From Deltaproteobacteria bacterium HGW-Deltaproteobacteria-3 (GTDB lineage Bacteria > Desulfobacterota > Desulfobulbia > Desulfobulbales > Desulfurivibrionaceae): DNA of 61,129 nucleotides. A program made the translations under genes and the position numbers. The DNA is taken from contig PHAW01000002.1 in assembly GCA_002841785.1 (NCBI GenBank), positions 1 to 61,129 of the forward strand. Reading direction: 5' to 3'. The notes under the pieces are model-generated. The model was not told the origin of the DNA. It searched no databases and saw only the letters and a program-made list of their open reading frames with translations. Shown here in pieces: positions 2,277-21,545 of this stretch (positions within the stretch are counted from its first letter, which is position 1; the number at the start of each line of letters is the position of its first letter).

Positions 2277-5200
2277 TTACGAGGCAATTTTATCCAGCGC
2301 CTCGCGCACCTTGGCGGCAAATGCCTGCATCGAGAATGGTTTCTGGATGAAATTGATCCCCTCGTCCAGCATACCCTGACGAGCGATGACATTTGCGCTA
2401 TAGCCGGACATGTATAAGCATTTGAGTTTCGGGTGTAGAGAGAGCAGGTTTTTTGCCAATTCGTGGCCGTTCATCTCGGGCATGACCACATCGGTTATGA
2501 GCAGGTGAATCTCTCCGGTATATTCCTTGGCCACCCGGATGGCCTCGCCCGGTGTCGAAGCTGCCAGTACCCGATACCCGAAATCCTCAAGTATTTGTTT
2601 CACCATGTCCAGAATCGCGGCTTCGTCTTCCGCCAGGAGGATGGTCTCGTGCCCTCCGGCGACGGGAGCCGCCGGGATTACCTTCGGTATCTCCACGCTC
2701 TTGCTCGTGTCTCGGGGCAGATAGATCTTGAAAGTCGATCCCTGGCCAGGTTCACTGTAGACGTTGACGAAGCCGCGGTTCTGTTTGACGATGCCATAGA
2801 CCGTGGCCAGTCCGAGGCCGGTGCCCTTGCCCAGTTCCTTGGTGGTGAAAAACGGTTCGAATATCTTGTCGAGGGTCTGCTTGTCCATGCCGCATCCGTC
2901 GTCGCTCACGGCCAGTAGGACGTATTCGCCGGGAATCGCTTCCGGATGGTCGGCGCAATAGGCCTCATCGATGATGGCATTGCGCGTTTCGATGGTGATC
3001 TTGCCCACTCCTGCTATGGCATCGCGGGCATTGACGCAGAGGTTGGCCAGGATTTGATCAATCTGGGAGGGATCCACCTTGATCGGCCACCCCTCTTCTC
3101 CCGGTAGCCAAGTGAGGTCGATGTCCTCGCCGATCAAACGCCGCAGCATCTTGAGCATCCCTTCCACGGTTTCATTCAGGTCGAGCACCTTGGGTACGAC
3201 GCTCTGTTTGCGGGCAAAGGCCAACAGTTGCCGGGTCAGGTCGGCGGAACGCCCGGCTGCCTTCCGGATTTCCTGCAGATTGGCAAAAAGCGGTTGATCC
3301 GGGGCTATCTGTTGCAGGGCCAGCTCCGCATGGCCGATGATCACCATCAGCATATTGTTGAAGTCGTGGGCCACGCCTCCGGCCAGCGTACCCACCGCTT
3401 CCATCTTTTGGGCCTGCCGCAGTTGTGCTTCCAGTTTTCTTTTTTCCGTCACGTCGTTGATGGTCTCGATGGCCGAAACCACCCGGCCTGATGCGTCGAA
3501 GACAGGGAAGGATCGCAATTCCATGTAATGTTTCGTTCCGGACGCGTCTTCGTGCGTATGGGAGGCGACATGGGGCATGCCGGTCTCAAAGGTGTGTCTG
3601 ACCGCGCATTCCCGGCGCTCCCCATCTTGTTCGAAGCAGGGTTGTGCAATGTGGTGTGAGGCTTCATAGCATAGCCGGCCAACCATCTGCTCCGCGGATA
3701 ACTGCATCATGTCGCAGAATGCCCTGTTCACTGAGAGGATTCGGTACTCACGGTCCACGACAATGAACCCCTCATCGACGGTCGCCAGGATATTCCGGTT
3801 GAATTCTTCGCTTTTCCTTAAAGCCTCCTCTGCCTGCTTCCGCTTGGTGGTGTCGCGCACCATTGCCAAATTATAGCTCTGGCCGCCATACTCAAAATAA
3901 TTGGCGTTGATTTCGACCGGGAAGATGCGACCATCCCTGCTCTTGTGGCATCCTTCAAAGGTGAGCGAATTCAATGCCCTGAGCTTGTTCCAGTGGTCGG
4001 GCCAGCGCTCCGGTGGGAAGTCCGGGTCAACATCCGGCACGCCCAAGCCGAGCAGTTCATTGCGACTGTATCCCAGGATACGGCAAGCCTCTTCGTTGAC
4101 GTACTGGAACCGTGCGTTTTCATCGATCAGAAAGGCGGCTTCGTGGATGTTGTTTAAGGCGAAGCTCAGGAGTGCGATGTCCTGTTCCGCCTGTTTGCGC
4201 TCGGTGATGTCCTGCACGGTTCCGACTCCGGTGAGTGCGTTTCCCGCCGCGTCGAAGCGTATCGTGGCGCGTTCCCGCACCCATCGTGTCTCGTTGCCAA
4301 CGAGGATGCGGTGCTCAATGTCGTACGGTCCGCCCCGCAAGGCCGCGTTCCAGGCCTGAAGCACCCGGTCGCGATCCTCCGGAAAAATGCAGGCGGCGAA
4401 GGTATCCAGGGCGAGCGGCTGTCCCTGCGGGATTCCGAACAGGCGGTATGTCTCGGCCGACCACTTCAACTCGTTGTGGCAAACGTCCAGGTACCAACTG
4501 CCTGTCTGTGCCACCGCTTGGGCGCGATTGAGCTCCTCTTCACTCTGGCGAAGGGCATCCTCCGCCAGTTTACGCTCGGAGATATCCCGGGCAACGGCAT
4601 AAATCCGTTGCCCGGACGGAAACGCCCGCCATTCGATCCAGTGGTACTTTCCGTTATTGTTGCGGTAACGGTTGGTGAAATTCAGCACCTCTTTCTGGTC
4701 GGCAAGCCTGGCAACCGCCTGCAGGGTCGCCTCCATATCCTCGGGATGGATAAAATCCAGAAAGCGTCGTCCTTCGAGTTGCGAGAGGGGAAAGCCGAGC
4801 GTTGTCTCCCAGGCCGGGTTCAACCGGCGAAAGTAACCGTCGGTGTCGGCAATGCATAAAAGATCCAGGGCATCGGTGAAGTAGTGATCCAGTTCCTCCG
4901 TCTTCTCCCGCAGTTCGGCGTCCTTTTCCACAATCACATCCAGCATGTGGTTGAACTCCCGCGCCATGACGGCCGTCTCGTCGTCGCCGGAAAGTGAAGA
5001 GCGGGCCAGGCGGTTGCCGGAGTGGACCGCGGCGATGGTCTCCTGGATGGCATAGAGCCTCCGGGTGATCCGGCGGCCCATAAACCAGGCGATAGCCGAG
5101 CCGAGGAGAATCGCGGCCAGAGCATAGGCGACACCGTCCCTGGTGATTGTCGTAAGCTTCTCTCCGGCTCTCTTTTGCCCTATGCCGACACGGGCCCAGC

Positions 5201-5636
5201 CGACCTGACGTCCTCCGATCATGGCGGGAGTTACGACATCAACCAACGCAGAAGTGTTGGCGAGCACCGTCTGGCGCGCTTCTCCGGGCAGGTCGAGCAT
5301 GTAGAGTCCCTGCCCGGATTTGTCGGTGTCGGCCAGCACGCGGCCTTCGTGGTCCGCGAGCATGGCAAAGATTAGATCCGGATAGCGGCGCTGGGCCTCC
5401 ACCAGCTCCTGTAGGCCCGAGATGTCGTCAGCGGCGATCCATCCCGCAGCGGAGATGGCGAGGGCCTGGGACAGCGCGGTCGCCTCCTCGATCTGGCGGT
5501 CCAGGAGCATGGTGCGCTGACGCGCGGTCAGATCGCCGATGAAAAGGGCCATCATTACGGCATGCACCACGGCCACGCCGATAATGAGACGACCACGAAG
5601 CGTGCCGAACAGGAAATGGTACAGGGTCTTCACCAT
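2277..5636 (-). CDS. Hybrid histidine kinase with four PAS domains
   Basis: Membrane sensor kinase of 1119 residues. Order: membrane helix ~17-35, periplasmic part ~36-165, second helix ~170-187, HAMP ~188-240, PAS ~250-358, ~365-484, ~487-602 and ~608-735, HisKA with phospho-acceptor H757 (GGVAHDFNN), HATPase ~850-965 with DDGCGMD and GTGLGL boxes, and a C-terminal receiver ~990-1105 ([13 protein letters not shown]). The last PAS contains three cysteines (C656, C667, C677). The start overlaps the stop of the upstream PhnD-like lipoprotein gene by 7 bases, so the two are probably translationally coupled and the lipoprotein is the likely periplasmic partner. No output regulator lies beside it. 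The ligand is not deducible. Confidence 0.9.
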
Positions 5637-6547
5637 CGCTTCTCCACAGGACGAACCTCGCTCTCGAAGCGGGAGGCGTAGCGGCGCACTATGTCGTAGT
5701 CCTCGTCCGAAGCGGGAAGGAAGCGTGCCGTTTCCATTCCCGCAAGGATCGACTTCCCTTCCGTGGTCTCCTCAAGTCCGAGCAGGAGTGCGCGGACCTG
5801 TATCGCCACCTGGGCGGGGATGCCGTTGCGCACCATGACGGAGTTGTTGATGAGCGATTCCGTTTCCCAGATGACTTTCAGCTCTGCCGCTTCCCGCGGA
5901 TGCTCCTTTTGGAATGCCCGCCAGGGCGGCGGCCAGGTCGCGCCCGCCGCGGTCTGGCCCATATGAACATTCATGATGGAAGACTCCTGGGAACCGACAT
6001 AACGGTTTTCGATGTCGGTATTGACGTTGAGGCCGTGGTTGTGGAGAAAGTACTGGGGCATGATGCAGGCCGCCAGGGCCGTGGGAGAGGGATAGCTCAC
6101 CGACTTCCCCCTCAGCTCGGCGGGGTGCGTCAGGCCACTGTCCCTGCGCACTACGAAAATCCCTTTGAAATCCCGCGGCTCTCCGGCCATGGCGATGACG
6201 CGGTAGCCGACCTTCATGGCCTGCAGGGTCTGCCAGGGATTGGGGAGGAGAAATTCGGGTTTGCGGGCCTGGTACTTTTTTTCGAAGTTGGCGTAGTCCC
6301 GCGACGCCTCCAGGGCCAGGCGTGCGCCTTGCAGCCGGCCATTCAGGTAGTCTATGAGCGGTTGATACGCCTGAATGAGTTTGCCCGGATTATGGAGGGG
6401 GTGAACCGCAAAGCGATAGACGGGGACCCCGGCGGATTGAGGCTTTGTCCCCAATTTCGGCCCCGTGACTTCGGGTTTTCGGTCGCAGCCGAGGAATGAT
6501 CCGAGAAGAAGCGTCAACATGAAAAATGTCACAACTCTCCGGCCCAT
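5630..6547 (-). CDS. PhnD-like periplasmic substrate-binding lipoprotein, sensor partner of the kinase
   Basis: This 305-residue protein belongs to the phosphate/phosphonate (PhnD) binding fold, in the form often paired with histidine kinases and not with transporters. It has a lipoprotein signal (MGRRVVTFFMLTLLLGSFLG then C). The mature part begins VYRFAVHPLHNPGKLIQAYQ, the family's strand plus 'YQPLIDYL' region. ATG 6547 was chosen because AGGAG lies just upstream and the lipobox then sits at the right place; a longer in-frame extension would run through the intergenic repeat. It overlaps the hybrid kinase gene. Unlike the second PhnD-like protein (9572-10498), it has no cysteine in the 'DLGFIC' position, so it probably binds something else. 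Confidence 0.8.
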   Translation of the reverse strand: MGRRVVTFFMLTLLLGSFLGCDRKPEVTGPKLGTKPQSAGVPVYRFAVHPLHNPGKLIQAYQPLIDYLNGRLQGARLALEASRDYANFEKKYQARKPEFLLPNPWQTLQAMKVGYRVIAMAGEPRDFKGIFVVRRDSGLTHPAELRGKSVSYPSPTALAACIMPQYFLHNHGLNVNTDIENRYVGSQESSIMNVHMGQTAAGATWPPPWRAFQKEHPREAAELKVIWETESLINNSVMVRNGIPAQVAIQVRALLLGLEETTEGKSILAGMETARFLPASDEDYDIVRRYASRFESEVRPVEKRW

Positions 6548-6627
6548 CCTCTTCTCCTGCGATCCGTCCGATTTTGCAGCCCTTTCCCCAGGAGGCATGT
6601 GGTGGGAGAAATGCTCGAAACAAAAAA

Positions 6628-6698
6628 GCCCTGATGAGGGTTTGCCGCGGAAAACCAGAGAGGGGTATGCCAGGGGGATGGAACGCGGCCATCGGGGC
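6628..6698. repeat. Palindromic intergenic repeat, copy 2
   Basis: The arms GCCCTGATG (6628-6636) and CATCGGGGC (6690-6698) pair almost perfectly. The left 21 bases match copy 1 at 18 positions and the right 14 bases (GCGGCCATCGGGGC) are identical. The middle differs between copies. On the - strand it follows the ABC-F gene and ends in a run of T, so this copy could also terminate that transcript. Confidence 0.75.
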
Positions 6699-6777
6699 TT
6701 GGGACCATTCTCGGTCAAAACGGGATCAATAAGCAACACAAAAAAGTGCGGTACAATCGCCGCGCAGGTTCTGCCGC

Positions 6778-8403
6778 TTAGCCCTGATAGCCCGCCTTGC
6801 GCAGGTAGTATTCGTAATCCCCCCCGTAGGACCGCATTTCCCCATGATCCACCTCCATGACCCGGTTCACCAGCGAGCGGAGAAAATGCCGGTCATGGCT
6901 GACCAGCACCACGGTGCCGGCGAATTTTTGCAGCGCTCCCAGCAGTATCTCCCGTGACTGGATGTCCAGATGGTTGGTGGGCTCGTCCAGGATCAGGAAA
7001 TTGAGCGGCCGGGCCAGCAGGGTGGCCAGCACCACCCTGCTTTTTTCCCCGCCGGAGAGGAGCTTGATCTGCTTGTCTACCGAGTCGCCCATAAAGAGAA
7101 AGGCGGCGCAGAGGTTGCGGATGGTGCCGATGTTGGCCTGGGGCAGGGCGTCCTGCACGGTGTCAAAGACGGTTCTTTCCGGGACCAGGACATCCATGGC
7201 ATGCTGGCTGAAATAGCCGAGGCCGACGTTGGCCCCGATGGTGACGCTGCCGGAGGTGGGCTCGGTCTGGTCGGCCAGGATTTTCAAGAAGGTTGACTTG
7301 CCCGCGCCGTTGACCCCGACCACCGCCACCTTTTCCCCCCGCTGGATCACCCCGGAGATGCCGGAAAACACCGGCCGTTCCCCGCCATCGTCCCGCGGCC
7401 AGCTCTTGGCCAGATTCTCCATGCGCACCACGTCGTCGCCGCTGCGGGGCGGCTCACCAAACTCGAAGCTGATCACCCGCTGTTCCGGGGGCAGCTCGAT
7501 GCGTTCGATCTTGTCCAGTTTCTTGACCCGGGACTGCACCTGGGAGGCGTGGGAGGCGCGGGCCGCGAAGCGGGCGATGAACTCCTCCTCCTTGGCCAGC
7601 ATCTCCTGCTGGCGGCGGAAGCTGGCGGCCAGTTGTTCCCGCCGGATCTCCCGCTCGCGCAGGTAGAAATCGTAATTGCCGCTGTAGGTGGTGATGGTGG
7701 CGTTGGCCACCTCGATGATCCGCGAAACCAGACGGTTCATGAAATCGCGGTCATGGCAGGTCATGAGCACCGCGCCCTTGAACTCCTTGGCCAGCCACTC
7801 CTCCAGCCAGACGATGGACTCCACGTCCAGATGGTTGGTGGGCTCGTCCAGCAGCAGGACATCGGGGTTCATGGTCAGGATGCGGGCCAGGGCGATGCGC
7901 ATCTTCCAGCCGCCGCTGAACGACTCCACCGGCCGGTTGAAATCCTCCTGTCCGATGCCCAGTCCGGTGAGCACTGCCTGGGACCGGGATTCCAGATCGT
8001 AGCCGCCGCGATGCTCGAACTCCTCCATGGCGTCGCCGTATTTCGCAAGCAGCGCGGTCATGGCCTCGTCCTCCATGGGCTGGGCCATGGCCGCTTCCAT
8101 CTCCTTGAGCTCCTCGCCCAACCGCACCACCTCGCCCACGGCGGCCATGGTTTCTTCCAGTGCCGAGCGGCCGGACATCTCGCCCACCTCCTGGGAAAAA
8201 TAGCCGATCACCGTCTTTTTGGCGCAGGAGATCTCGCCCTTGTCCGCCTCTTCCTCGCCGGTAATCAACCGGAAGATGGTGGATTTGCCCGCGCCGTTGG
8301 GGCCGACCAGGCCGGTGCGCACGCCGGGGAGGATCTGAAGGCCGGCGTTGGCGAAAAGAATCTGGGAGCCATGCTGTTTGCTGATGTTGGTGAGGTGTAT
8401 CAT
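6778..8403 (-). CDS. ABC-F family ATPase
   Basis: Soluble twin-nucleotide-binding-domain ATPase of 541 residues with no membrane segments, typical of the ABC-F translation factors (EttA, Uup, YbiT, YheS group) that bind the ribosomal E site. Walker A sites are GPNGAGKST and GVNGAGKST. ABC signatures are SFSGGWKMRIALAR and LLSGGEKSRVVLA. Both Walker B/H-loop regions contain LLLDEPTNHLD or LILDEPTNHLD. The inter-domain linker (~240-320) is charged and helical, with no arm-like insertion in NBD1 that would mark EttA. I cannot say which subfamily it is. It could be a housekeeping factor or an antibiotic-protection type. The start ATG 8403 gives the normal N-terminus MIHLTNISK. Confidence 0.9.
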   Translation of the reverse strand: MIHLTNISKQHGSQILFANAGLQILPGVRTGLVGPNGAGKSTIFRLITGEEEADKGEISCAKKTVIGYFSQEVGEMSGRSALEETMAAVGEVVRLGEELKEMEAAMAQPMEDEAMTALLAKYGDAMEEFEHRGGYDLESRSQAVLTGLGIGQEDFNRPVESFSGGWKMRIALARILTMNPDVLLLDEPTNHLDVESIVWLEEWLAKEFKGAVLMTCHDRDFMNRLVSRIIEVANATITTYSGNYDFYLREREIRREQLAASFRRQQEMLAKEEEFIARFAARASHASQVQSRVKKLDKIERIELPPEQRVISFEFGEPPRSGDDVVRMENLAKSWPRDDGGERPVFSGISGVIQRGEKVAVVGVNGAGKSTFLKILADQTEPTSGSVTIGANVGLGYFSQHAMDVLVPERTVFDTVQDALPQANIGTIRNLCAAFLFMGDSVDKQIKLLSGGEKSRVVLATLLARPLNFLILDEPTNHLDIQSREILLGALQKFAGTVVLVSHDRHFLRSLVNRVMEVDHGEMRSYGGDYEYYLRKAGYQG

Positions 8404-8698
8404 CGTTTAACTCGCAAGAAGGGAAAAAGGAAGCAGGGCCGCGACATAGACTCGAAGAGCTGCAGCAGCGAAGCGGCAACAGTCGCCGATCGTTTTCACT
8501 TCCTGCTGTAATCGCGGCTTGTTGCAATTTCAATAATCATGCGGGTCTCGTACAAAGGGAAAAAGTGAATTCGAAGCGTGCATGGTTCGCGCTGACGGGT
8601 ATGCGGGGTATCTGCACGAAAAAACGGCATTTATAGCATGGCAGGCAAGGCGGTGCAACTCTATTCTGCCGCAACCCGCAAGTCCGGACGCCCCGGCA

Positions 8699-8727
8699 TT
8701 GTCAAGGGCGGAGGGGTCTGCTATGAT
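8699..8727 (+). promoter_or_regulatory. Probable sigma70 promoter in a 386-base gene-free stretch
   Basis: TTGTCA (8699-8704) and TATGAT (8722-8727) are separated by exactly 17 bases, a strong match to the housekeeping consensus. It would start transcription near 8735, about 55 bases before the lipoprotein gene at 8790. The rest of the gene-free stretch 8404-8789 shows nothing else I can support. Confidence 0.6.
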
Positions 8728-8789
8728 GCGCGCAGGATCCGGGCGCAGCGTCCCTTGGAGCAATCAGAGAAGAAAAGAAGGGAGTTTCC

Positions 8790-9491
8790 ATGCAGCACAG
8801 CACACTCCGGCTGGCCGGAAAAATCTTTTTTATGGTCCTGCTTGTTTCCGGCTGCGTCCGGCACGAGCCTGTGGCAGATATTCCCGATGGCCGGGAAACG
8901 ATGCCGGAGACAAGGGTTTCTGCTCCCGCCCCAAGCCAGAGCAGCATCCCCTTTGTCCCTCCGCGCGAGCCGCGCCCCGAGCAGGATTCCGGGCCGGAGG
9001 AATTTATCGCCTCCCTTGCGGGCCGGGGTCGCGCCACTGCTGAGTGCTTTCAGTTGCGCCCCGGAAGCGTGGGCGGCAAGCAGGCAAAGGCACGCCGCTG
9101 CGAACCCCAGAGCCTCCCCTTTGCCCGCTGCCGGAGCGGCATCGACAGTTGCCGCCTTGGCCACGAAAACGGCCCCCTCACCTGGTTTGCTTGTGAAAAA
9201 GCGCGCGGCAACACCTCGCTTGTGCCCCGGTCCGGAAGCATCCTCATCCTTGGTGCCAATAACCGGCGCAAGATGCCCACCGGGCATGTCGCCTACGTCG
9301 AACAGGCGATCCCCCAAAGCGGCACAATCTACCGGCTTGTTTTCAGCCACACCAATTACGATCGCCGCTGCAGCCTGGAAACCAACATCGAGGCCACCTA
9401 CGACAGCGCTGCCCGGACCCTGGACATCCACGGCGGCGCCTGGCAGGCCTGGGGAAAAGGGCTTCCGGTGGCCGGGTTTATCCTGGAGTGA
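8790..9491 (+). CDS. Lipoprotein with CHAP-like amidase domain
   Basis: This 233-residue protein has a lipoprotein signal (FFMVLLVSGC, Cys ~22). A low-complexity, Pro-rich linker follows to ~65, then a domain resembling CHAP peptidases. CEPQSLPFAR looks like the catalytic-Cys strand, GSILIL and PTGHVAYVEQ look like the His strand, and FSHTNYD supplies the Asn-type third residue. It ends with a beta strand (GLPVAGFIL). CHAP domains cut peptidoglycan cross-links or glutathionylspermidine-type amides; which one cannot be told here. It lies 80 bases upstream of the PhnD-like sensor gene on the same strand and has its own promoter-like sequence. Moderate confidence in the fold, low in the substrate. 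Confidence 0.6.
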   Translation: MQHSTLRLAGKIFFMVLLVSGCVRHEPVADIPDGRETMPETRVSAPAPSQSSIPFVPPREPRPEQDSGPEEFIASLAGRGRATAECFQLRPGSVGGKQAKARRCEPQSLPFARCRSGIDSCRLGHENGPLTWFACEKARGNTSLVPRSGSILILGANNRRKMPTGHVAYVEQAIPQSGTIYRLVFSHTNYDRRCSLETNIEATYDSAARTLDIHGGAWQAWGKGLPVAGFILE

Positions 9492-9571: not shown

Positions 9572-10498
9572 ATGACTGCGCAGACGAAAAAGAGGCTTGT
9601 TTTTTGTTGGGGCAGAGTGATTGGTCTGGGGTTTCTTTTTTTTCTGCTGGCGGGGTGCGAGGTTGGGCAGCAGGAAAAGGCGGAGCCGGAACGCCAGCTC
9701 CGCCTGGACAACCTGACCCAGCTCCCGGACGGACAAACAGATCCGGACTCGCAGGCGCTCCGGATCGGGGTGGCGGCCATCCTTTCTCCCCAGGGCACGG
9801 TGCTCTCCTACCAGCCGCTCATCGACTATCTGGGTCGCAAGATGGACAAACCGGCCATCCTGGTGCAGCGCAAAACCTATCAGGAGCTGAACGACCTGCT
9901 GGCCAGAAATGTGGTGGATCTGGGCTTCATCTGCACCGGCGCCTATCTCGAAGGCGCCCGGAACGGAACGATGTCGCTGTTGGTTGTTCCGCAGATAAAC
10001 GGCAAGACCACCTACCGCTCCTTTTTCATCGTGCCTGCCGCTTCTCCGGCCCGGGAACTTGGAGACCTGCGCGGCAAGGTGTTTGCCTTCACCGATCCGC
10101 TTTCCAATACCGGCTATAGGTACCCGTTGTCCCTGTTGCAGGACATGGGGCAGCAGCCGGAAACCTTTTTCGGCCGGACGATTTTCACTTACAGCCATGA
10201 CCGGTCCATTGCCGCGGTGATGGAGGGCATTACGGACGGTGCTTCGGTGGACAGTCTGGTGTATCAATTCGCCGGAAAACGCAACCCGGAAATTTTAAGG
10301 CGGACCAAGGTGATCTGGGAATCGCCGGATTTCGGCATCCCTCCGGTGGTGGTGCCGCGCATCATCGCCCCTGCCAAGAAGGCCTTGCTGAAGGAGCTGC
10401 TTCTCGGTATGCACCATAACGCAGAAGGCGAAAAAGCCCTGGCTGTGTTCGGGGTGGACCGGTTTGTCGAGCCTCCCCCCGGGTTGTATGGATTATAA
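9572..10498 (+). CDS. PhnD/AioX-like periplasmic sensor lipoprotein
   Basis: Periplasmic binding protein of 308 residues. ATG 9572 follows AGAGGAGA; signal peptide with lipobox LLAGC (Cys 29). The mature domain starts LRIGVAAILSPQGTVLSYQPL and has the family's 'YQPLIDYLGRK' and 'VDLGFICTGAYLEG' segments. C121 in GFICTGAY is the only cysteine in the mature protein apart from the lipid anchor. From memory, arsenite-sensing AioX-type proteins of this family bind As(III) through a conserved cysteine in the equivalent strand, so this protein is a candidate arsenic sensor. That assignment is inference from position and context. It is followed 15 bases later by a histidine kinase gene and then a response regulator, forming one operon. 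Confidence 0.75.
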   Translation: MTAQTKKRLVFCWGRVIGLGFLFFLLAGCEVGQQEKAEPERQLRLDNLTQLPDGQTDPDSQALRIGVAAILSPQGTVLSYQPLIDYLGRKMDKPAILVQRKTYQELNDLLARNVVDLGFICTGAYLEGARNGTMSLLVVPQINGKTTYRSFFIVPAASPARELGDLRGKVFAFTDPLSNTGYRYPLSLLQDMGQQPETFFGRTIFTYSHDRSIAAVMEGITDGASVDSLVYQFAGKRNPEILRRTKVIWESPDFGIPPVVVPRIIAPAKKALLKELLLGMHHNAEGEKALAVFGVDRFVEPPPGLYGL

Positions 10499-10513
10499 GG
10501 AGAGTCGCCCATC

Positions 10514-11977
10514 ATGCCTGTTTTCCGGACCCAGATGACCGCATTTTTTCGGCAAGCCGCGCGTAAAATTCGATCCGTCTTGCTCAGCGTGCCGCTGAAG
10601 TTGAAGATACTGGGGCTGGCCCTGGCTTTGATCCTTATCGTCGGCGCGGCCAGTATTTACAGGGTAGAGGCGGCGCTCAGCGAGAATTTCGACGATTTTC
10701 TCCGGGAAGAGAGCCGCTTCGTGGCAACGGAATTATCCTATCAGGCCCATGATTATCTGCTGATTAACGATATCTACGGCCTGACCCAGATGCTCAGGCG
10801 CACGGTGCAGAATCGCCCCAACATGCGCTATGGTTTTGTCCGCAATGCCGCAGGGCAGGTGGTGGCCCACACCTTTGAGGGCGGATTCCCCTCGGATCTG
10901 CTGGAAGATGTTCCCGTTTTTTCCCTCCCCGTCTCCATACCGCGACTGCTGCGCACCAATGAGGGGAATATATGGGAAACTACGGCAGGGATCAGCAACG
11001 GCAACGAAGGCGTGGTGGTGGTCGGGGTCAAGGGCGACAGCCTGCGCCAACAGATTGAGGCGATCACCGGATCCCTTGCCCGGACTACCCTGCTGGTCGC
11101 AATATTCGGGGTGCTGCTGTCCCTGAGGTTGACCTGGATTATCACCAGACCGGTGGGCATGCTGCTTGAAGCGACCCGGGCCGTGCGGCGCGGGGATTAT
11201 TCCGTGCATCTGGACCCGGCGGAAAGCCGGGATGAGTTGGGGAAACTTATGGAGGGCTTCAACGCCATGGAGCTTTCCCTTGCCAGCGCGGATAAGGCCC
11301 GGGTGGAGAAGGAGCAGCTCCAGCGGGATTTCCTGCACCGGATCATGGCCGGCCAGGAAGGGGAAAGAAAACGGATCGCCCGCGAGCTCCACGACCAGAC
11401 CGGCCAGGCCCTGGCTTCCTTTATGGTTGACCTCAAGGTGCTTGAAAACGCGCAGAGCGTGAAAGACATGGGCGAGGGGATCACCCGGCTGAAAAAAGCG
11501 ATAACCGAGGAGATGGAGGCGATCCATGATCTTGCGGTGGCGTTGCGGCCCACGGTGCTGGACGATCTCGGTCTGGTGCCGGCGGTGGAGATGCTGGCCC
11601 GCAACTTCGAAAAACGGCACCGGATACAAGTGCGTCTGAATTTCCTCGGCTTTCTTGACCGGCGGCTCGATCTCTGTCTGGAAACCTGCGTGTATCGCAT
11701 CATTCAGGAGGCCCTTACCAATATTGCCAAGCACGCCCAGGCCACCGAGGTGACTATTTTTCTGGAAGGCAGGGAGGAAACCCTGCGCGGCGGGGTTGAA
11801 GACAATGGCCGCGGCTTTGAGCCGGAGAATATAGACCAGACAAAACACATGGGCATCTACGGCATGCGGGAGCGGGTCCAGCTCCTGGGCGGCTCTTTTC
11901 ACATCGACAGCGACGAAGGGATTGGCGCCATGATCTCCTTTGAAACCCCTATCAAACAGGAAAAATGCCATGAGTAA
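10514..11977 (+). CDS. NarX-type sensor histidine kinase
   Basis: Membrane sensor kinase of 487 residues. Helix ~30-49, periplasmic region ~50-188, second helix ~190-210, HAMP ~211-262, then a HisKA_3 dimerization region with H293 in ERKRIARELHDQTGQAL. The HATPase domain follows (EALTNIAKHA, GVEDNGRGF, GIYGMRERV). This architecture belongs to the NarX/DegS/LiaS kinases that signal to LuxR-type regulators, matching the next gene. The periplasmic part has no recognisable ligand domain of its own, consistent with sensing through the lipoprotein encoded upstream. Its stop codon overlaps the start of the regulator gene by 8 bases. Confidence 0.92.
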   Translation: MPVFRTQMTAFFRQAARKIRSVLLSVPLKLKILGLALALILIVGAASIYRVEAALSENFDDFLREESRFVATELSYQAHDYLLINDIYGLTQMLRRTVQNRPNMRYGFVRNAAGQVVAHTFEGGFPSDLLEDVPVFSLPVSIPRLLRTNEGNIWETTAGISNGNEGVVVVGVKGDSLRQQIEAITGSLARTTLLVAIFGVLLSLRLTWIITRPVGMLLEATRAVRRGDYSVHLDPAESRDELGKLMEGFNAMELSLASADKARVEKEQLQRDFLHRIMAGQEGERKRIARELHDQTGQALASFMVDLKVLENAQSVKDMGEGITRLKKAITEEMEAIHDLAVALRPTVLDDLGLVPAVEMLARNFEKRHRIQVRLNFLGFLDRRLDLCLETCVYRIIQEALTNIAKHAQATEVTIFLEGREETLRGGVEDNGRGFEPENIDQTKHMGIYGMRERVQLLGGSFHIDSDEGIGAMISFETPIKQEKCHE

Positions 11978-12638
11978 AATACGCGTCCTGATTATTGATG
12001 ACCATCAGCTTCTTTCCTCCGGCCTGGCCATGCTGCTCTGCGCTGAAAAAGATCTGGAGGTGACCGGCCAGGCGGACAAGCCGGAGACTGCCCTGCGGCT
12101 GGCGGAGGAACAACAGCCGGACATTGTCCTCCTGGATATCTCCCTGCCGGGCAGAAGCGGCCTCGACCTGCTGCCGGAACTGCTGGCCCGTTCTCCGCAA
12201 TCCCGGATTATCATGATGACCATGCATGAGGAACAGCAATACCTCAAAAAAGCGTTGGAAGGCGGGGCCAAGGGTTTTGTCCTCAAAAAAGGGGGAGGCA
12301 CGGACCTGATGTACGCCATTCGGGCGGTGATGCAGGGCGACACCTATATCCAGCCCTCCATGCTGGCCGAGTTTGTCAAGACAGGCGAAGACAAGCGAGG
12401 GGGATCTCCGGAAAGGATTTCCGAGGATGAGCAGCGCTGGGGGATTCTCAGCCAGCGCGAACAACAGATTGTGCTTGGGGTGGCAAAAGGATACACCAGC
12501 CGAGAGATGGCGGAGGAATTTTTTTTAAGCGAAAAAACCGTGGCGACCTATCGCTCGCGGGCCATGACCAAGCTCGGCTTTGAGAGCAGGGCGGATCTTG
12601 TTGAGTTTGTACTGCGGCTGAGGAAAATCAATATCTGA
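11970..12638 (+). CDS. NarL/FixJ-type response regulator
   Basis: DNA-binding regulator of 222 residues. The receiver domain (1-120) has D10/D11, phospho-acceptor D56 (IVLLDISLPG) and a conserved Lys near residue 105. The C-terminal LuxR-type HTH includes LSQREQQIVLGVAKGYTS and TVATYRSRAMTKL. I chose ATG 11970 (MSKIRVLIIDDH), because the longer in-frame start would add kinase C-terminal sequence. It overlaps the kinase stop, so translation is coupled. Its targets are not known. The respiratory reductase operon begins 3.2 kb downstream on the same strand and is an obvious candidate. Confidence 0.93.
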   Translation: MSKIRVLIIDDHQLLSSGLAMLLCAEKDLEVTGQADKPETALRLAEEQQPDIVLLDISLPGRSGLDLLPELLARSPQSRIIMMTMHEEQQYLKKALEGGAKGFVLKKGGGTDLMYAIRAVMQGDTYIQPSMLAEFVKTGEDKRGGSPERISEDEQRWGILSQREQQIVLGVAKGYTSREMAEEFFLSEKTVATYRSRAMTKLGFESRADLVEFVLRLRKINI

Positions 12639-12809
12639 GCCTAAGGTCCCCGGCCGGTTTTAGGCCGCAAGGTTCACCTGTTGCCTACTGCCCCTTTCCC
12701 CGTGCCAGCAAAATCCCTTCACGGAAATCTAATTTTCCCCGCTATATTTTTCCCAAGATTTTCGTCATGGTGCCGTAAGATTTGGTGACGACCAAATACC
12801 ATCTCCTCC

Positions 12810-12852
12810 GCCCACTTCTCCCCTCCTCCCTCCGGGGGAAGTGGGCTTTTTT
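12810..12852 (+). terminator. Rho-independent terminator after the response regulator
   Basis: GCCCACTTC (12810-12818) pairs perfectly with GAAGTGGGC (12838-12846) and is followed by six T. It ends the 9.5-12.6 kb sensor operon. It also shows that the long in-frame extension upstream of the GGDEF-EAL gene is not coding. Confidence 0.85.
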
Positions 12853-12907
12853 ACAATATGCTTCTCGGCCAAATTTCGCGGAAATTGAATACGATCCGCA
12901 ATATCAT

Positions 12908-15691
12908 ATGAAAAAACCATACTTATTTCTCGATCCGTCGGTGGCCGAGATTTTTACCAAGGCCAAAAAGAATTGCGCCGAATTGTGTCGCCCCCAATCC
13001 CTCCGTTTTTTCCTGTTGTCTCGCATGGTATTTTTGGGCTTTGCGGTTTTCATAGCCATACTGGCCACAACCACCATGCTGTACGAACGGCTGATCGACC
13101 GCCAAGCCCGTTTCACCTCGGCATCCTTCGCCCAGCAGGCCTATGCCACGATAAACAATCTCATGCTGCGCGGGCCTTCTCGGCAGGAATTGCTGCAAAC
13201 CATAAGCGATTTCAAAACAGCCCAGCAAGACTCTCCGTACAGGCTGGAAATTTTTCGGGGAGCATTGGTTGAAAAGGATTACGGCTCCATCGTGCAGCCA
13301 CCCATTGACGAGGCCGTCCGGCAAGTGTTTGCAAGCGGGCGCCCGGAAACAAGGAAAAATCCCGAGGCAACCCGTTACATCTACCCTTTGATCGCGGAGG
13401 CCAACTGCCTGCGATGCCACCCCTCCGTCAAGCTCGGTGCGACCCTGGGCGCGGTGGAAGTGAGTCAGAATATCGCCGTGCTCACTGCCCGGATGCGCAA
13501 TGAGTCCATCTGGATTTTTTTCGCTTACGGGTTCATGACGCTGCTCTTCGCCGGGTTCGTGAGTTGGCGGGTGACGGCAAAGGTCTCCGCGGCAATACGG
13601 AAATTCCAGCAGCATACTTCCAGCATACAGAGCGTATCGGACCTGCAAGCCATCGGCCTGCTCGGAAAAACCGACATGGGGTTTCTCGAATTCAATCAAT
13701 CCGTGCAGGCGTTGTCCGAGCTGGCCCAACGCCTGCAGACCATTGCGGTCGACAAGGATATCCTCGAATTTGAAATCAAACTGCTCAATAAGTTCGTCAT
13801 CACCTCGGATGTGGTCAAGGATTGGACAACCTTCATCAAGGAACTGCTCGTCGACATCAACACTATTATCGACACAACCGCTATTGTCGCCTTTTTCCGG
13901 GATCAGGGCCTGGAGGACGCATACACCCTGGATATTTTCTGGCGCAGCGCTCCGCCCAAATCAGTCCAGGCAGGAATGGAGAACATGGTCAAGGAGCAAC
14001 TGTCCGGCTCCTTCCGGTTGGACCAGGAAACTTCCCTTATTCGAGTGACGCACCACGTCAGCAATAACGGCCTGCCGCTTGCCAGGGATTTTACCGTCGC
14101 TGAAATCGATCTGCACACGAAATCCATTTTTCTGGAACACCCCAAGGTGGGAGGGGTTGTCGGCCTCGGAGTCTGTTCGTCCCTGGTGACCGATCCCATC
14201 TATCATCTTGTGTTGAGCTCGATCCTTTCCACGCTGATGAACCTGGTCGGTTCCCTCAAGGCCATTTCCTATTATACGCGGGATTTGGAATACTTTGCGA
14301 CCAGAGACCCCCTCACCGGTCTGCACAACCGGCGGATGTTCATGGAGTTGCTCAACTACGAAACAAGCCGGGCAACGCGGCACGAGTACCCTTTTTGCCT
14401 GCTGTTCATCGACATGGATAATTTCAAGACGATCAACGATCGATTCGGTCACACTGTCGGCGATAATTATCTCAAAAAATTCGCGGAAATGATCCGGGCA
14501 AACGTGCGCGAAGGGGACTTCGTCGCCCGTTACGGCGGCGACGAATTTACCGTACTTCTGCCCGAAACTACCACAGAACAGGCGAACGAGATGGCCTCCC
14601 GCATCCTCAGGGCGACCGCCGCGATGAACATCCCTTCGCCAACCGGCAATGTGACGATCAACGGCACAATATCCATCGGCATTGCCCTATTTCCAGAGAA
14701 TGGCCGGACAGCGGAAGAGCTGGTTCAACTTGCCGACAGTATGATGTACAAGGTGAAAGGAGAAGGGAAAAATGCCGTGGCCGTTGCAGAACCAGCGAAG
14801 ACGGGCGCTTTTCTCAAAAACAAAAAACGCATTGTCTCCATGCTGTATGAGGCTGTTGAGCAAAAAAGTCCGGTGCCGTTTTTTCAGCCGATCGTTGATC
14901 TTTCCGCCGGAACCATCCTGGCCCATGAGCTGTTGATGAGAATCCCCGAGGCAGACGGATTCATGGCCGCGGGAATGTTCATCGAAACCGCCGAGGAACT
15001 GGGGCTTATCCACGCGCTTGACCTGATCGTCCTGGAGAAGGCCTGCGCGGCAATGCGCGACACGGCCTACAGCGGCAAACTTTTTGTCAACATCAGCCCC
15101 AAAAATTTCGTCGTTTCCAGATTCGCCTCCACATTCCATGCCATTGTCACCGGACACGGAATCAACCCCGGCCAGATTGTCCTGGAAATCACCGAGAGGG
15201 AGACCACCCGAGATATCAGCGAGCTGCAGCATTTTATCTTCCGCATGCATAAGTTGGGGTATCTTCTCGCCATCGATGATTTTGGTTCCGGATATTCCTC
15301 TTTCAGATATTTGCAGATCTTTCCCATCGATTACTTGAAGATCGAAGGTGAGTTCATCAGGAAAATACATTGCGACAGCGAATGCCGGGCACTTGTTAAG
15401 AGTATTGTTTTTCTGGCCAAGGATCTGAAGATAAAAACCGTTGCCGAGTGTATAGAGAAAAAAAGTTATGTGCGAACACTCCGTTCCCTGGGGATCGACT
15501 ATGGTCAGGGATACCATATGGGTCGCCCGGTTCCGGAGTTGACCCCGGCACAGAGTATCATGTTGCCGCCGCCTCGGGGGGATGAAAAGCATGACCATCG
15601 CCGGACTGCCTCAACCATCAGGCGGCAGAATCCCGGCGAAAAAATTCTTGAGCCCAATGAGGGTGGAGAGCCACCTTTCCCTGTGTCATAA
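12908..15691 (+). CDS. Membrane GGDEF-EAL protein with CXXCH (haem-type) sensor domain
   Basis: Bifunctional c-di-GMP enzyme candidate of 927 residues. Helix ~33-52, extracytoplasmic domain ~60-198 with CLRCH (C167, C170, H171) as in DUF3365/Tll0287-type haem sensors, and helix ~200-218. A GAF-like cytoplasmic region lies at ~280-450. The GGDEF domain has an intact GGDEF (543-547) and an inhibitory I-site RxxD five residues earlier (REGD-FVARY). The EAL domain (~645-885) has the motif as ELL in HELLMR and keeps NISPKNF, LEITERE, DDFGSGYS and LKIEGEF. Both halves look active. ATG 12908 was chosen because a terminator occupies the longer extension. The haem domain suggests redox or gas sensing. 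Confidence 0.88.
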   Translation: MKKPYLFLDPSVAEIFTKAKKNCAELCRPQSLRFFLLSRMVFLGFAVFIAILATTTMLYERLIDRQARFTSASFAQQAYATINNLMLRGPSRQELLQTISDFKTAQQDSPYRLEIFRGALVEKDYGSIVQPPIDEAVRQVFASGRPETRKNPEATRYIYPLIAEANCLRCHPSVKLGATLGAVEVSQNIAVLTARMRNESIWIFFAYGFMTLLFAGFVSWRVTAKVSAAIRKFQQHTSSIQSVSDLQAIGLLGKTDMGFLEFNQSVQALSELAQRLQTIAVDKDILEFEIKLLNKFVITSDVVKDWTTFIKELLVDINTIIDTTAIVAFFRDQGLEDAYTLDIFWRSAPPKSVQAGMENMVKEQLSGSFRLDQETSLIRVTHHVSNNGLPLARDFTVAEIDLHTKSIFLEHPKVGGVVGLGVCSSLVTDPIYHLVLSSILSTLMNLVGSLKAISYYTRDLEYFATRDPLTGLHNRRMFMELLNYETSRATRHEYPFCLLFIDMDNFKTINDRFGHTVGDNYLKKFAEMIRANVREGDFVARYGGDEFTVLLPETTTEQANEMASRILRATAAMNIPSPTGNVTINGTISIGIALFPENGRTAEELVQLADSMMYKVKGEGKNAVAVAEPAKTGAFLKNKKRIVSMLYEAVEQKSPVPFFQPIVDLSAGTILAHELLMRIPEADGFMAAGMFIETAEELGLIHALDLIVLEKACAAMRDTAYSGKLFVNISPKNFVVSRFASTFHAIVTGHGINPGQIVLEITERETTRDISELQHFIFRMHKLGYLLAIDDFGSGYSSFRYLQIFPIDYLKIEGEFIRKIHCDSECRALVKSIVFLAKDLKIKTVAECIEKKSYVRTLRSLGIDYGQGYHMGRPVPELTPAQSIMLPPPRGDEKHDHRRTASTIRRQNPGEKILEPNEGGEPPFPVS

Positions 15692-15879
15692 GCAAGCTCG
15701 GATTTTAAACCGGAGCCGAATGTGTTGTGTTTGCTTGTGGCGCGTAGGGAAAACACCTACATTTTTTGACAAACAAATCCAAGAAAAGCTGCTACTTGTT
15801 TTTTCTTTTTCATGCATAATAGAGTCGTTGCCATGAGAAAATTCTTCATAGCGCATAGTGCGCGACTTCCATAGGACTG

Positions 15880-16872
15880 ATGAGGATCATGCCCAATACT
15901 CTTTGTGACTCCCATGGCAGAGACATTACCTATCTGCGCCTGGCTGTCACCGACCGTTGCAACCTGCGGTGCACGTATTGTATGCCGAAGGGTTGCCGCA
16001 CCTCCAGAAACGAACTGCTCGATTATGATGAGCTGCTCCGGGTGGTCCGGATCTTTGCCGGTCTCGGGATCGGCAAAATCAGGCTGACCGGCGGAGAACC
16101 TTTTGCCCGCAAAGGCTTGGTCGATTTTCTGCCGGAGATACAAAGCGTGCCGGGCATCAAGGAGATCGGCATTACCACCAACGGCACGCTCTGCTTTAAT
16201 GATATCCCACGTCTCAAGGCCTCGGGGGTTACCGGGCTCAACTTCAGCCTGGACACCCTGTCGCCTGCCCGGTACCGGAAAATCACCGGCGCGGACCTGT
16301 TCCATGAGGCGTTTGCCTCCATCATGGAGGCTATTCTTCAGGGAATCCGCGTCAAGGTGAATGTGGTGGTTCTGGACAACGACAATTGCGATGAATTGCT
16401 CCACCTGGCCGGACTGGCGGAGGATTATCCCGTGGAGGTGCGTTTTATCGAGCCCATGCATTTTAACGGCCGCGGAGAATTCACCCCGCCGCATTGGCAT
16501 GCGGCGCGACTCAAGGCTTTTTTCCTGGAAAATCTTCCCGGCTGCGTCGAACTCCTCAAAAAACACGACTCCACGGCCCAGCTTTTCAAGGTGAAAAATT
16601 ATCTCGGCACAGTGGGCATCATCGCCGGGCACTCCCGCAGTTTCTGCGCCTCCTGCAATAAGGTGCGTCTGACCCCGCAGGGAATGCTGAAAAACTGCCT
16701 GTACGACAACGGCGTTCTCGACATGAAAAGGCTATTGCGCAACAACGCCGATGACGAGGAAATAATCGCCGCCATCCGGAACGCGGTGACGGCAAAGTCC
16801 GCGGATGGTTCCATCGCGGAACAAGATCGGCGCGACCGCATGCCCCGCTCCATGGCGACAATCGGAGGATAA
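15880..16872 (+). CDS. moaA: GTP 3',8-cyclase (molybdenum cofactor synthesis)
   Basis: Radical SAM enzyme that makes the first intermediate of molybdopterin from GTP. It is 330 residues long. The SAM cluster motif is CNLRCTYC. The second 4Fe-4S cluster cysteines are in FCASCNKVRLTPQG and LKNC. LTGGEP (SAM-binding GGEP) and the C-terminal GG tail (TIGG) needed for catalysis are present. A second ATG nine bases on (15889) has a GAGG site and could be the real start. It begins a + strand run that continues with a MOSC protein 6 bases later and the molybdoenzyme itself. This suggests the operon carries its own cofactor supply. A TTGACA box lies at 15766-15771 but no convincing -10 accompanies it. 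Confidence 0.95.
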   Translation: MRIMPNTLCDSHGRDITYLRLAVTDRCNLRCTYCMPKGCRTSRNELLDYDELLRVVRIFAGLGIGKIRLTGGEPFARKGLVDFLPEIQSVPGIKEIGITTNGTLCFNDIPRLKASGVTGLNFSLDTLSPARYRKITGADLFHEAFASIMEAILQGIRVKVNVVVLDNDNCDELLHLAGLAEDYPVEVRFIEPMHFNGRGEFTPPHWHAARLKAFFLENLPGCVELLKKHDSTAQLFKVKNYLGTVGIIAGHSRSFCASCNKVRLTPQGMLKNCLYDNGVLDMKRLLRNNADDEEIIAAIRNAVTAKSADGSIAEQDRRDRMPRSMATIGG

Positions 16873-16878
16873 ATAAGA

Positions 16879-17352
16879 ATGAAAGCGAACACCGGACATG
16901 TGGAAGCGGTCTGTATCAGCGAAAAAAAAGGCATGGTGAAAAAAGAGGTGCCTGAGATTCTCCTGGAGGAAAAATGGGGGATTACCGGGGACGCCCATGC
17001 CGGGATCTGGCACAGGCAGGTGTCGCTGCTGGCCGGGGAAAGTATCGATGCGGTGAAGCAGAAGATGCCCCACCTGAAGCACGGGGTGTTTGCCGAGAAC
17101 ATCGTCACCCGTGGGATGGATCTGATGCAGCTTGCCATCGGCGACCGGTTGGTGATCGATGGCACGGTGGTTCTCGAGGTCACCCAGATCGGCAAGGAGT
17201 GCCACAACGACGGCTGCGCCATCAAAAAGGCCACCGGAGACTGCATCATGCCCAAGGAAGGGATTTTCACCAGGGTTATCCACGGCGGGGTTGTCAAGGC
17301 GGGCCTTGCCATTGATATAGAAAGAATTTCGGGGGCAACAAGGGTAGCATAG
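16879..17352 (+). CDS. MOSC-domain protein
   Basis: Stand-alone MOSC domain of 157 residues, the fold that handles sulfur on molybdenum cofactors (as in the C-terminus of Moco sulfurase, and YiiM). Visible family features are GITGDAHAG, FAENIVTRGMDL, GDRLVIDG and the conserved cysteine segment IGKECHNDGC. It is the same length as other single-domain MOSC proteins next to moaA. Lying between moaA and the molybdoenzyme catalytic subunit, with gaps of 6 and 27 bases, it probably helps mature that enzyme's cofactor. The exact reaction is unknown. Confidence 0.9.
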   Translation: MKANTGHVEAVCISEKKGMVKKEVPEILLEEKWGITGDAHAGIWHRQVSLLAGESIDAVKQKMPHLKHGVFAENIVTRGMDLMQLAIGDRLVIDGTVVLEVTQIGKECHNDGCAIKKATGDCIMPKEGIFTRVIHGGVVKAGLAIDIERISGATRVA

Positions 17353-20041: not shown

Positions 20042-20797
20042 ATGACGCAATATGCGATGGTTATAGATCTTCATAAATGCTCGGGCTGCGGCGCCTGCGC
20101 CCTGGCCTGCAAAACCGGGAACAACACCGCGAACCCAGCCAACGGCCAGGCTCACAACTGGGCCGATTTTCAGGCCGAGGTCAGCGGCAAGTTTCCGAAA
20201 ACCAAGTACGCCATGCGGCCGGTGCTTTGCAACCACTGCGCCAATGCCCCCTGTGTCAAGGCCTGCCCGGTAACGCCCAAGGCCATGTACAAGACCAAGG
20301 ACGGGATCACCATGCACAACGACGAGCGCTGCATCGGCTGCCGCGCCTGCCAGGAGGCGTGCCCCTACTCCAAGATGGAGGTCAAGGGCAATGAGTACAG
20401 TGTCATCAGCTACAACGAAGAGGGCAAGCCCTATCGGGCCGATTTTGCCGACAAGACCGAGCTCATTCCGGGCTGTACCACCTCCGGCGCCGAATTGGCC
20501 GCCAAGGCCGGGGCCATCCCGCCGCACCGCACCGCTTATGACCATCCGGATTACCAGGATGTGCGCCGCGATAACATCACGGAAAAATGCATCTTTTGTG
20601 ACCATCGGGTGAAGAAAGGGGAGCTGCCGAACTGTGTGGTTGCCTGTCCGGCCAAGGCCCGGACCTTCGGCGACATCTCCGACAAGAACAGCGAGGTTGC
20701 CCAGTTGGTCAAGAAGTACAAAGGCACCGTTCTCAAGCCCGAAAAGGGCACCAAGCCCAATGTCTATTACATCCGGAGCTTCAGCGTTGCCAAGTAG
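20042..20797 (+). CDS. arrB: Four-cluster ferredoxin subunit, probable ArrB
   Basis: Electron-transfer subunit of 251 residues, predicted to carry four 4Fe-4S clusters between the electron donor and the molybdenum subunit. Cysteine groups: CSGCGACALAC, CNHCANAPCVKACP, CIGCRACQEACP and CIFCDHRVKKG...CVVACP. DYQDVRRDNITEKCIFC is typical of ArrB, DmsB and PhsB proteins. There is no signal peptide, as expected for a subunit that hitch-hikes through Tat with the RR-bearing partner. An AGGAGG site lies 8 bases before ATG. No membrane anchor of the NrfD (ArrC) type follows, which fits the ArrAB two-subunit form. Confidence 0.88.
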   Translation: MTQYAMVIDLHKCSGCGACALACKTGNNTANPANGQAHNWADFQAEVSGKFPKTKYAMRPVLCNHCANAPCVKACPVTPKAMYKTKDGITMHNDERCIGCRACQEACPYSKMEVKGNEYSVISYNEEGKPYRADFADKTELIPGCTTSGAELAAKAGAIPPHRTAYDHPDYQDVRRDNITEKCIFCDHRVKKGELPNCVVACPAKARTFGDISDKNSEVAQLVKKYKGTVLKPEKGTKPNVYYIRSFSVAK

Positions 20798-20885: not shown

Positions 20886-21545
20886 ATGAACACCGATCGT
20901 GCGCGACTTGACCTGGCCCGGAGCGACGTCTACCGTCTGCTTGCCGCCTGCTTTTATGAACCGGACCGGGAGATGTTGCTTGAGGAAAATCTCTGCGCCA
21001 ACCTCGCCGGTTTGATGGAGGAGTTGTCGATACCGGCGGCCCGGTCTTGTCGCCGTATGGAACAGGGTCTTCAGGAAAACAGCCGGGAAGAGCTGCTGGT
21101 GGAGTACTCCTCCCTTTTCCTGAATCCCTTCGGCGCTCCTGCCCAGCCCTACGGTTCGGTCTATCTTGACAAAGAACGACAGCTCATGGGCGACTCGACC
21201 ATGCAGGTCCGGAAAATCTATGCTGCCGCCGGAGTGAAGCAGGAGACCGATGGTCCTCCGGACCATATTGCCATCGAATTGGAATTCATGAGTTTTCTCG
21301 GGCAGCGGATCGCCCAGGCCATCGCCTGTTCGGACCAGGAGGCAGTGGCGGAATTTACCGCCATCCAGGCCTGTTTTTTTAACACATATCTGGCTTCCTG
21401 GGCTCCATTGCTGGGCAGGGCCATTCAGGAGCACGCCGAGCTGCCGCTGTATCGCGCCTTGGGAGACTGTCTGCTCGGCTTCATCGGCGCGGAACAGCAG
21501 CGGCTCCGGAAATCTGCCGATTCCCCACTCCATGAGCCTCGTTGA
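20886..21545 (+). CDS. TorD-family molybdoenzyme chaperone
   Basis: All-helical cytoplasmic chaperone of 219 residues of the TorD/DmsD/NarJ type. These bind the Tat signal and apoprotein of molybdoenzymes until the cofactor is inserted. Features: YRLLAACFYEPDREML near the N-terminus, the conserved LLVEYSSLFLNPFG-x-AQPYGSVYLD segment, DHIAIELEFMSFL, and FFNTYLASWAPLLGRAI. Its likely client is the ArrA-like protein encoded 1 kb upstream. It overlaps the next gene by 14 bases, so the two are probably translated together. Confidence 0.9.
   Translation: MNTDRARLDLARSDVYRLLAACFYEPDREMLLEENLCANLAGLMEELSIPAARSCRRMEQGLQENSREELLVEYSSLFLNPFGAPAQPYGSVYLDKERQLMGDSTMQVRKIYAAAGVKQETDGPPDHIAIELEFMSFLGQRIAQAIACSDQEAVAEFTAIQACFFNTYLASWAPLLGRAIQEHAELPLYRALGDCLLGFIGAEQQRLRKSADSPLHEPR

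Follow-up and report, generated by a model that had tools for sequence, protein, structure and literature searches.

An ArrXSR-type three-component system predicted to control the arr operon of a Desulfobulbales genome, with a candidate operator and recurrent changes of partner enzyme

The DNA analysed here, referred to as the window, is a 61,129-nucleotide stretch (positions 1 to 61,129) of contig PHAW01000002.1 from Deltaproteobacteria bacterium HGW-Deltaproteobacteria-3 (assembly GCA_002841785.1), a member of the order Desulfobulbales. Its positions 9572-12638 encode, all on the + strand, a PhnD-fold lipoprotein, a HisKA_3 sensor kinase and a NarL/LuxR-type response regulator. These genes probably constitute an ArrXSR three-component system that controls the adjacent arr operon for arsenate respiration, the sensor ligand being most likely arsenate. 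The gene set, the identity of the pocket residues, the ArrX-type fold, the order-wide linkage to arrA and a conserved site were computed in this work. The window system is a new member of ArrXSR, and the operator and the switching of partner enzymes are the new results.

An initial annotation, made from the sequence alone, described these genes as a possible arsenite-sensing system composed of an AioX-like lipoprotein, a NarX kinase and a NarL regulator. The three open reading frames (ORFs) and their general classes were borne out by ORF analysis and domain search. The first encodes an ArrX-type predicted periplasmic oxyanion-binding lipoprotein of 308 residues (9572-10498; PF12974, E=4e-56), the second an ArrS-type sensor kinase of 487 residues (10514-11977), and the third an ArrR-type regulator of 222 residues (11970-12638). 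Their spacing is operon-like, with a gap of 15 bp between lipoprotein and kinase genes and an overlap of 8 bp between kinase and regulator genes. The distance of 3.2 kb to the arr-type genes also held, measured from the 3' end of the regulator gene to moaA (15880); arrA (17380) follows at 4.7 kb. The best Protein Data Bank match of its product is Shewanella ArrA (6cz7, E=1.8e-289), and sequence comparison identifies the catalytic gene as a genuine ArrA homologue.

The sensor protein carries a lipobox (LAGC, C29) and a single later cysteine, C121 (codon 9932-9934, + strand), within GFICTGAY, as had been noticed at the outset. In the alignment, C121 falls exactly in the column of AioX Cys106, and all seven AioX pocket positions are kept (Y103, C121, Y148, S178, T180, H209 and D227). 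The best solved relative by sequence is ArrX of Chrysiogenes arsenatis (6x6b, E=4.7e-50), followed by AioX (2.4e-28), with PtxB also behind. An AlphaFold2 model of the lipoprotein (mean predicted local distance difference test score 80, core mostly 85-98) was compared with solved structures. It matches arsenate-bound ArrX (6xl2) with Z 32.0, 1.7 Å and 38% identity, AioX with Z ~30 and 28-29% identity, and the PhnD and PtxB folds with Z 27-28. The structural comparison with AioX that had been suggested thus supports the common fold, but ArrX is closer, being the top match by E-value, Z, root-mean-square deviation and identity over AioX, PtxB and PhnD.

Local features point in the same direction. 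The loop that is hydrophobic in AioX and ArxX (PVFL) reads ILSPQG in the window protein and MISPLE in ArrX, in a comparison based on Sinorhizobium, Paraburkholderia, Sulfuricella, Azoarcus and Cereibacter sequences, the AioX structure 8ed5 being a loop-deletion mutant. Around the cysteine, the window protein shares FICT with ArrX, in place of the W[IL]C[GD] of AioX and ArxX. Moreover, a tree of 54 rows unites AioX and ArxX in a clade (support 100/99) that leaves out the window protein. Sequence, model and tree all class the sensor as ArrX-like and place it outside the AioX/ArxX clade. The earlier description as an AioX-like arsenic system therefore needs to be narrowed: a relationship to AioXSR, an arsenic-oxyanion-type three-component system, is supported, and the genes belong with an arr operon, but the sensor itself is of the ArrX kind.

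This distinction is important for the ligand. One rival explanation, which elaborates the arsenite sensing first proposed, is that As(III) is bound through C121 as a thiolate adduct, in the manner of AioX, and that arsenite, the reaction product, induces arr. The match of C121 to Cys106 and the retention of the complete pocket favour it, and Badilla et al. found that AioX and ArxX bind arsenite (PMC5908839). However, C. arsenatis ArrX does not bind arsenite despite its conserved cysteine; it binds arsenate at 1 µM and phosphate weakly at 150 µM, and selenate, sulphate, tetrathionate, thiosulphate, molybdate and antimonite were not bound (PMC5908839). In addition, the PVFL loop and the W[IL]C[GD] flank are missing from the window protein, and the separate AioX/ArxX clade is associated, in the loci examined, with HisKA kinases and sigma-54-type regulators. 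Arsenite sensing thus appears unlikely, and the ligand is probably arsenate, judging by similarity to ArrX and by linkage to arr.

Because ArrX has the same cysteine without binding arsenite, this residue is a mark of the family and not of arsenite. All sensor-type homologues in an 84-row alignment have it, whatever the partner enzyme, those beside non-Arr enzymes included, and it is therefore of no use for identifying arsenite sensors. Consequently, C121 as proof of arsenite binding was rejected. Only the window paralogue lacks it: the other PhnD-like lipoprotein (5630-6547, within an ORF at 5630-6739) has Asn at this position, in agreement with the initial annotation, and keeps one of the seven pocket residues.

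The kinase resembles NarX in its transmitter only. Its HisKA_3 domain (His293) is accompanied by HAMP and HATPase_c domains, and the regulator combines Response_reg (Asp56) and GerE domains of the NarL/FixJ class with a LuxR-type helix-turn-helix (HTH). Hence, the transmitter and regulator classes first assigned are both present, but the domain search gave no match of the periplasmic part to the NarX sensor type. This part shows weak single-Cache likeness (sCache_3_2), with E=0.11 here and 4e-6 to 3e-4 in three orthologues. The whole-protein scores of kinase and regulator are far under the NarX/NarL equivalog cut-offs. The HisKA kinase and sigma-54 (AtoC) regulator of AioXSR and ArxXSR are not the type found here, in comparison with L096-L100. 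The regulator, of the NarL/FixJ type and without an AAA+ domain, fits the ArrR form of Chrysiogenetes and Firmicutes, which unlike the AtoC type was described as CitB-like with a FixJ-like HTH (PMC5908839). A HisKA_3/NarL pair with ArrX also precedes arrA in a Bacillota metagenome-assembled genome (L021). Given this pair and the published ArrR description, in which CitB-like presumably denotes COG2197 (NarL/FixJ), the pairing of such proteins with this sensor is not the new combination it had been taken for.

The association of the sensor with arsenate reductase extends across the order. In a survey of 258 Desulfobulbales genomes, in which sensor homologues were counted at E up to 1e-30, 82 genomes contain the sensor, 52 contain ArrA and 41 contain both, so that the sensor is present in 41 of the 52 arrA genomes (Fisher, 3e-15). 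Where sensor and arrA share a contig, the sensor is always upstream and in the same orientation. Loci with separate X, HisKA_3 kinase and NarL regulator genes are called type I. Most of them have the order X, kinase, regulator and then MOSC/arrA, with little beyond the kinase and regulator genes between the sensor and the reductase operon. A second arrangement occurs in L080-L083 and L085-L089. There, a tandem double PhnD-domain protein, with the cysteine pocket in the first domain only, is accompanied by a kinase of Cache-HAMP-HisKA architecture and by an NtrC-type sigma-54 regulator; in most cases arrA follows directly.

A candidate regulatory site was found on reading the intergenic regions of the window. 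The 17-bp palindrome GTAGGGAAAACACCTAC at 15744-15760 (no strand assigned), 120 bp before moaA, is a predicted ArrR operator. Its pattern, GTMRG-N7-CCTAC with an A/T-rich spacer, is similar to a published motif that precedes arrA in C. arsenatis, tcaggtttttccctga, that is (G)TCAG-N7-CCTGA(C) (PMC5908839). When the interval between regulator and reductase genes was searched, the pattern was present at 0-1 mismatch in all 27 type-I Desulfobulbales loci, against about 1.3 expected by chance in total. Six of the 27 came from outside the set that gave the pattern; loci of the same genus are not independent, but many families are covered. Outside the order, the type-I loci L137-L139 carry the operator at 0-1 mismatch, and it was not found in L140 or in loci with kinase/sigma-54-regulator fusions beside reductases. 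Exact matches in other genomes are few, 3 to 25 per genome when a palindromic site counts once for each strand; some of them resemble tRNA T-arms (GGTTCGAATCC). The site is present in type-I loci, has no exact match in 0.31 Mb of control sequence (20 loci whose regulators are of the hybrid or sigma-54 type), and has its sole intergenic exact match in this genome at 15744-15760; the predicted operator therefore tracks the NarL-type regulator. Since the Bacillota locus L021 has no clear operator (the best candidate has two mismatches), its range is Desulfobacterota together with the published C. arsenatis motif.

The same palindrome could in principle be an intrinsic terminator. The window copy has a 5-bp stem and a 7-nt loop followed by a T run, and the scan lists it as terminator-like. 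In most loci, however, the arms (GTC facing TAC) pair incompletely, and instead of a T run a sequence such as aaagaaatc flanks the site. What is conserved is the letters of the palindrome, not the pairing. A terminator is very improbable, and it was rejected on this conservation pattern, the terminator look of the window copy not being common to the other loci. Separately, several loci have a second, looser element (GACAAA.AAATC-like) some 5-60 bp downstream of the palindrome, for example at 15766-15780 of the window. It could serve as a -35 region or else be a second half-site.

Taken as an ArrXSR system, the proteins suggest the following mechanism, in which arsenate binding, phosphotransfer, DNA binding and activation are inferred. 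The cleft of ArrX, formed by the seven pocket residues, would take up a pentavalent oxyanion of tetrahedral shape, arsenate being the likeliest. Loaded ArrX would then engage the Cache-like periplasmic part of the HisKA_3 kinase ArrS, which would phosphorylate the NarL-type ArrR at Asp56. In effect, phosphorylated ArrR would bind the palindrome at 15744-15760 and activate the operon moaA-MOSC-arrA-arrB-torD-FeS.

Several points weigh against this interpretation. The ligand class is assigned by analogy at just 38% identity, and the pocket differs very little between AioX, ArxX, ArrX and those homologues that neighbour a TtrA-like enzyme, so the pocket alone does not separate arsenate from arsenite, phosphate or other oxyanions. 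Position 180 is Thr here and Ser in C. arsenatis ArrX; the same replacement is present in a bona fide ArxX. The ArrA homologue scores 1088 bits with NF041714, below the cut-off of 1600 bits, which is exceeded by none of the ArrA homologues found in the genomes of the order. Three of the four exact operator matches in this genome lie inside ORFs. Finally, a gene for a GGDEF-EAL protein splits the cassette from the arr operon in this genome.

Another key aspect of these systems is the exchange of the enzyme beside them. In nine genomes of the order (L075, L076, L077, L078, L092, L101, L104, L107 and L112), the place of ArrA next to this cassette, with the same pocket and site, is taken by a TtrA-like molybdoenzyme of about 1050-1150 residues; on the contig of L104, only the ferredoxin subunit of this enzyme is present. 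None of the nine contains arrA (Fisher, 0.002). Partner switches on the tree number at least five on starred branches and nine by parsimony. Further loci with an ArrX-type cassette beside a TtrA-like enzyme are L137-L140 and L143-L156; beyond the order, this partner is commoner than ArrA and is spread over many further families of Desulfobacterota, where kinase and sigma-54 regulator often appear to form a single protein. Such apparent fusions, of about 730-765 residues and beside an ArrX-like sensor, were seen in L143-L147, L149-L152 and L154-L156. L137 has two complete divergent XSR cassettes (8097-9134, - strand; 10678-11592, + strand), separated by 1.5 kb and with a TtrA-like enzyme after each.

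The three TtrA-like enzymes scanned score 448-495 bits with NF011567, far under the cut-off, and the TtrA/SrdA lineage includes an archaeal arsenate reductase (PMC7331816). On the simplest reading, ArrA and the TtrA-like enzyme both reduce the oxyanion that is sensed, the alternative being another shared ligand. The TtrA-like enzyme is thus a candidate alternative oxyanion reductase. A more far-reaching proposal, put forward tentatively and with the odds somewhat against it, is that the TtrA-like enzymes of Desulfobacterota form a class of bacterial reductases, so far overlooked, that act on arsenate (or a related As/Sb/Se oxyanion) and have repeatedly replaced ArrA under the same sensor.

Partner switching also bears on a second rival explanation: the ligand would be a different oxyanion (phosphate, selenate, antimonate or a sulfur compound, for example tetrathionate), and arr would be one among several target operons. 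Sensors of this family, with the same pocket, accompany TtrA-like enzymes and also hybrid kinases in loci that lack Arr; TtrS too has a PhnD-type sensor, and P0002 weakly matches the TtrS model. Against this stand the strong arrA linkage in the order, the restriction of the predicted operator to the arr promoter among intergenic sites here, and the failure of C. arsenatis ArrX to bind most of the anions offered, tetrathionate and selenate included (PMC5908839). A different oxyanion is accordingly judged quite unlikely. Membership in PF12974 and folds similar to PhnD and PtxB would also suit the ordinary binding protein of a phosphonate/phosphite ABC transporter whose gene happens to neighbour a two-component system of no relation to it, but with no adjoining permease or ATPase, an X-S-R order fixed over dozens of genomes, a score of 102 bits against the TIGR03431 (PhnD equivalog) cut-off of 261 and an arsenic-sensor pocket found in none of the other PF12974 proteins of the 2.85-Mb genome, the probability of this is negligible.

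The surroundings of the ArrXSR genes complete the picture. A gene for a CHAP-like lipoprotein (8790-9491, +; PF05257 match weak, E 1e-5 to 1e-3) ends 80 bp before arrX and is probably the first gene of the same operon. Its position directly 5' of arrX is kept in same-genus loci only (60-88% identity). The intervening GGDEF-EAL gene (12782-15691, +; start codon provisional) encodes a CLRCH (CxxCH) haem-binding-like motif in the N-terminal part of its product; the insertion also occurs in L063 and L069, with moaA and MOSC, and is missing from most loci compared. The arr operon, on the + strand, starts with moaA (GTP 3',8-cyclase; 15880-16872) and a MOSC-domain protein gene (16879-17352), followed by arrA for the catalytic subunit (17380-19920) and arrB for a four-cluster ferredoxin subunit (20042-20797; NF041715, 241.7 bits). 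A TorD-family chaperone gene (20886-21545) and a gene for a 4Fe-4S ferredoxin-type protein (21532-22530), in an order kept in relatives, come after these. On the - strand, 2277-6739 holds the PhnD-like lipoprotein without the arsenic pocket and then a large PAS hybrid kinase, a pair kept in L066.

These findings place ArrXSR across Desulfobulbales, its binding protein having been characterised previously, as far as found, only in Chrysiogenes. They supply a concrete, testable operator and correct a tempting shortcut: an arsenite sensor is not to be recognised by the conserved cysteine. Partner switching, moreover, offers a sensor-based route to reductases of the same substrate that are unlike ArrA, which bears on metagenome surveys of arsenate respiration.

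Among known systems, NarX/NarL shares the HisKA_3 transmitter and the regulator class, but the window kinase has a Cache-like periplasmic part and is proposed to work with a separate binding protein. The tetrathionate system TtrS/TtrR has both a PhnD-type sensing domain and a LuxR-family regulator in common with it. It differs in the fusion of the sensor to a HisKA kinase, in an arsenic cysteine pocket that is not established, and in its target. ArxXSR (Alkalilimnicola; Sulfuricella and Azoarcus KH32C plasmids) shares pocket and layout, but clusters with AioX and has a sigma-54 regulator, an arsenite ligand and an arx target. AioXSR (Rhizobium NT-26, Agrobacterium, Sinorhizobium M14) has the three-component layout, cysteine and pocket in common, and differs by 28-30% identity, the hydrophobic PVFL loop, a HisKA kinase, a sigma-54 regulator, arsenite as ligand and aio as target. 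The closest parallel is ArrXSR of C. arsenatis (6x6b, 6xl2), from which the window differs in its 38% identity, the Thr at the second serine position, the moaA, MOSC and GGDEF-EAL genes between cassette and arrA, and the CHAP-like lipoprotein gene before arrX. Both have the cysteine pocket, the ArrX-type loop, a NarL/FixJ-type HTH regulator without AAA+, the arrA association and a (G)TCAG-N7-CCT-type motif before arr.

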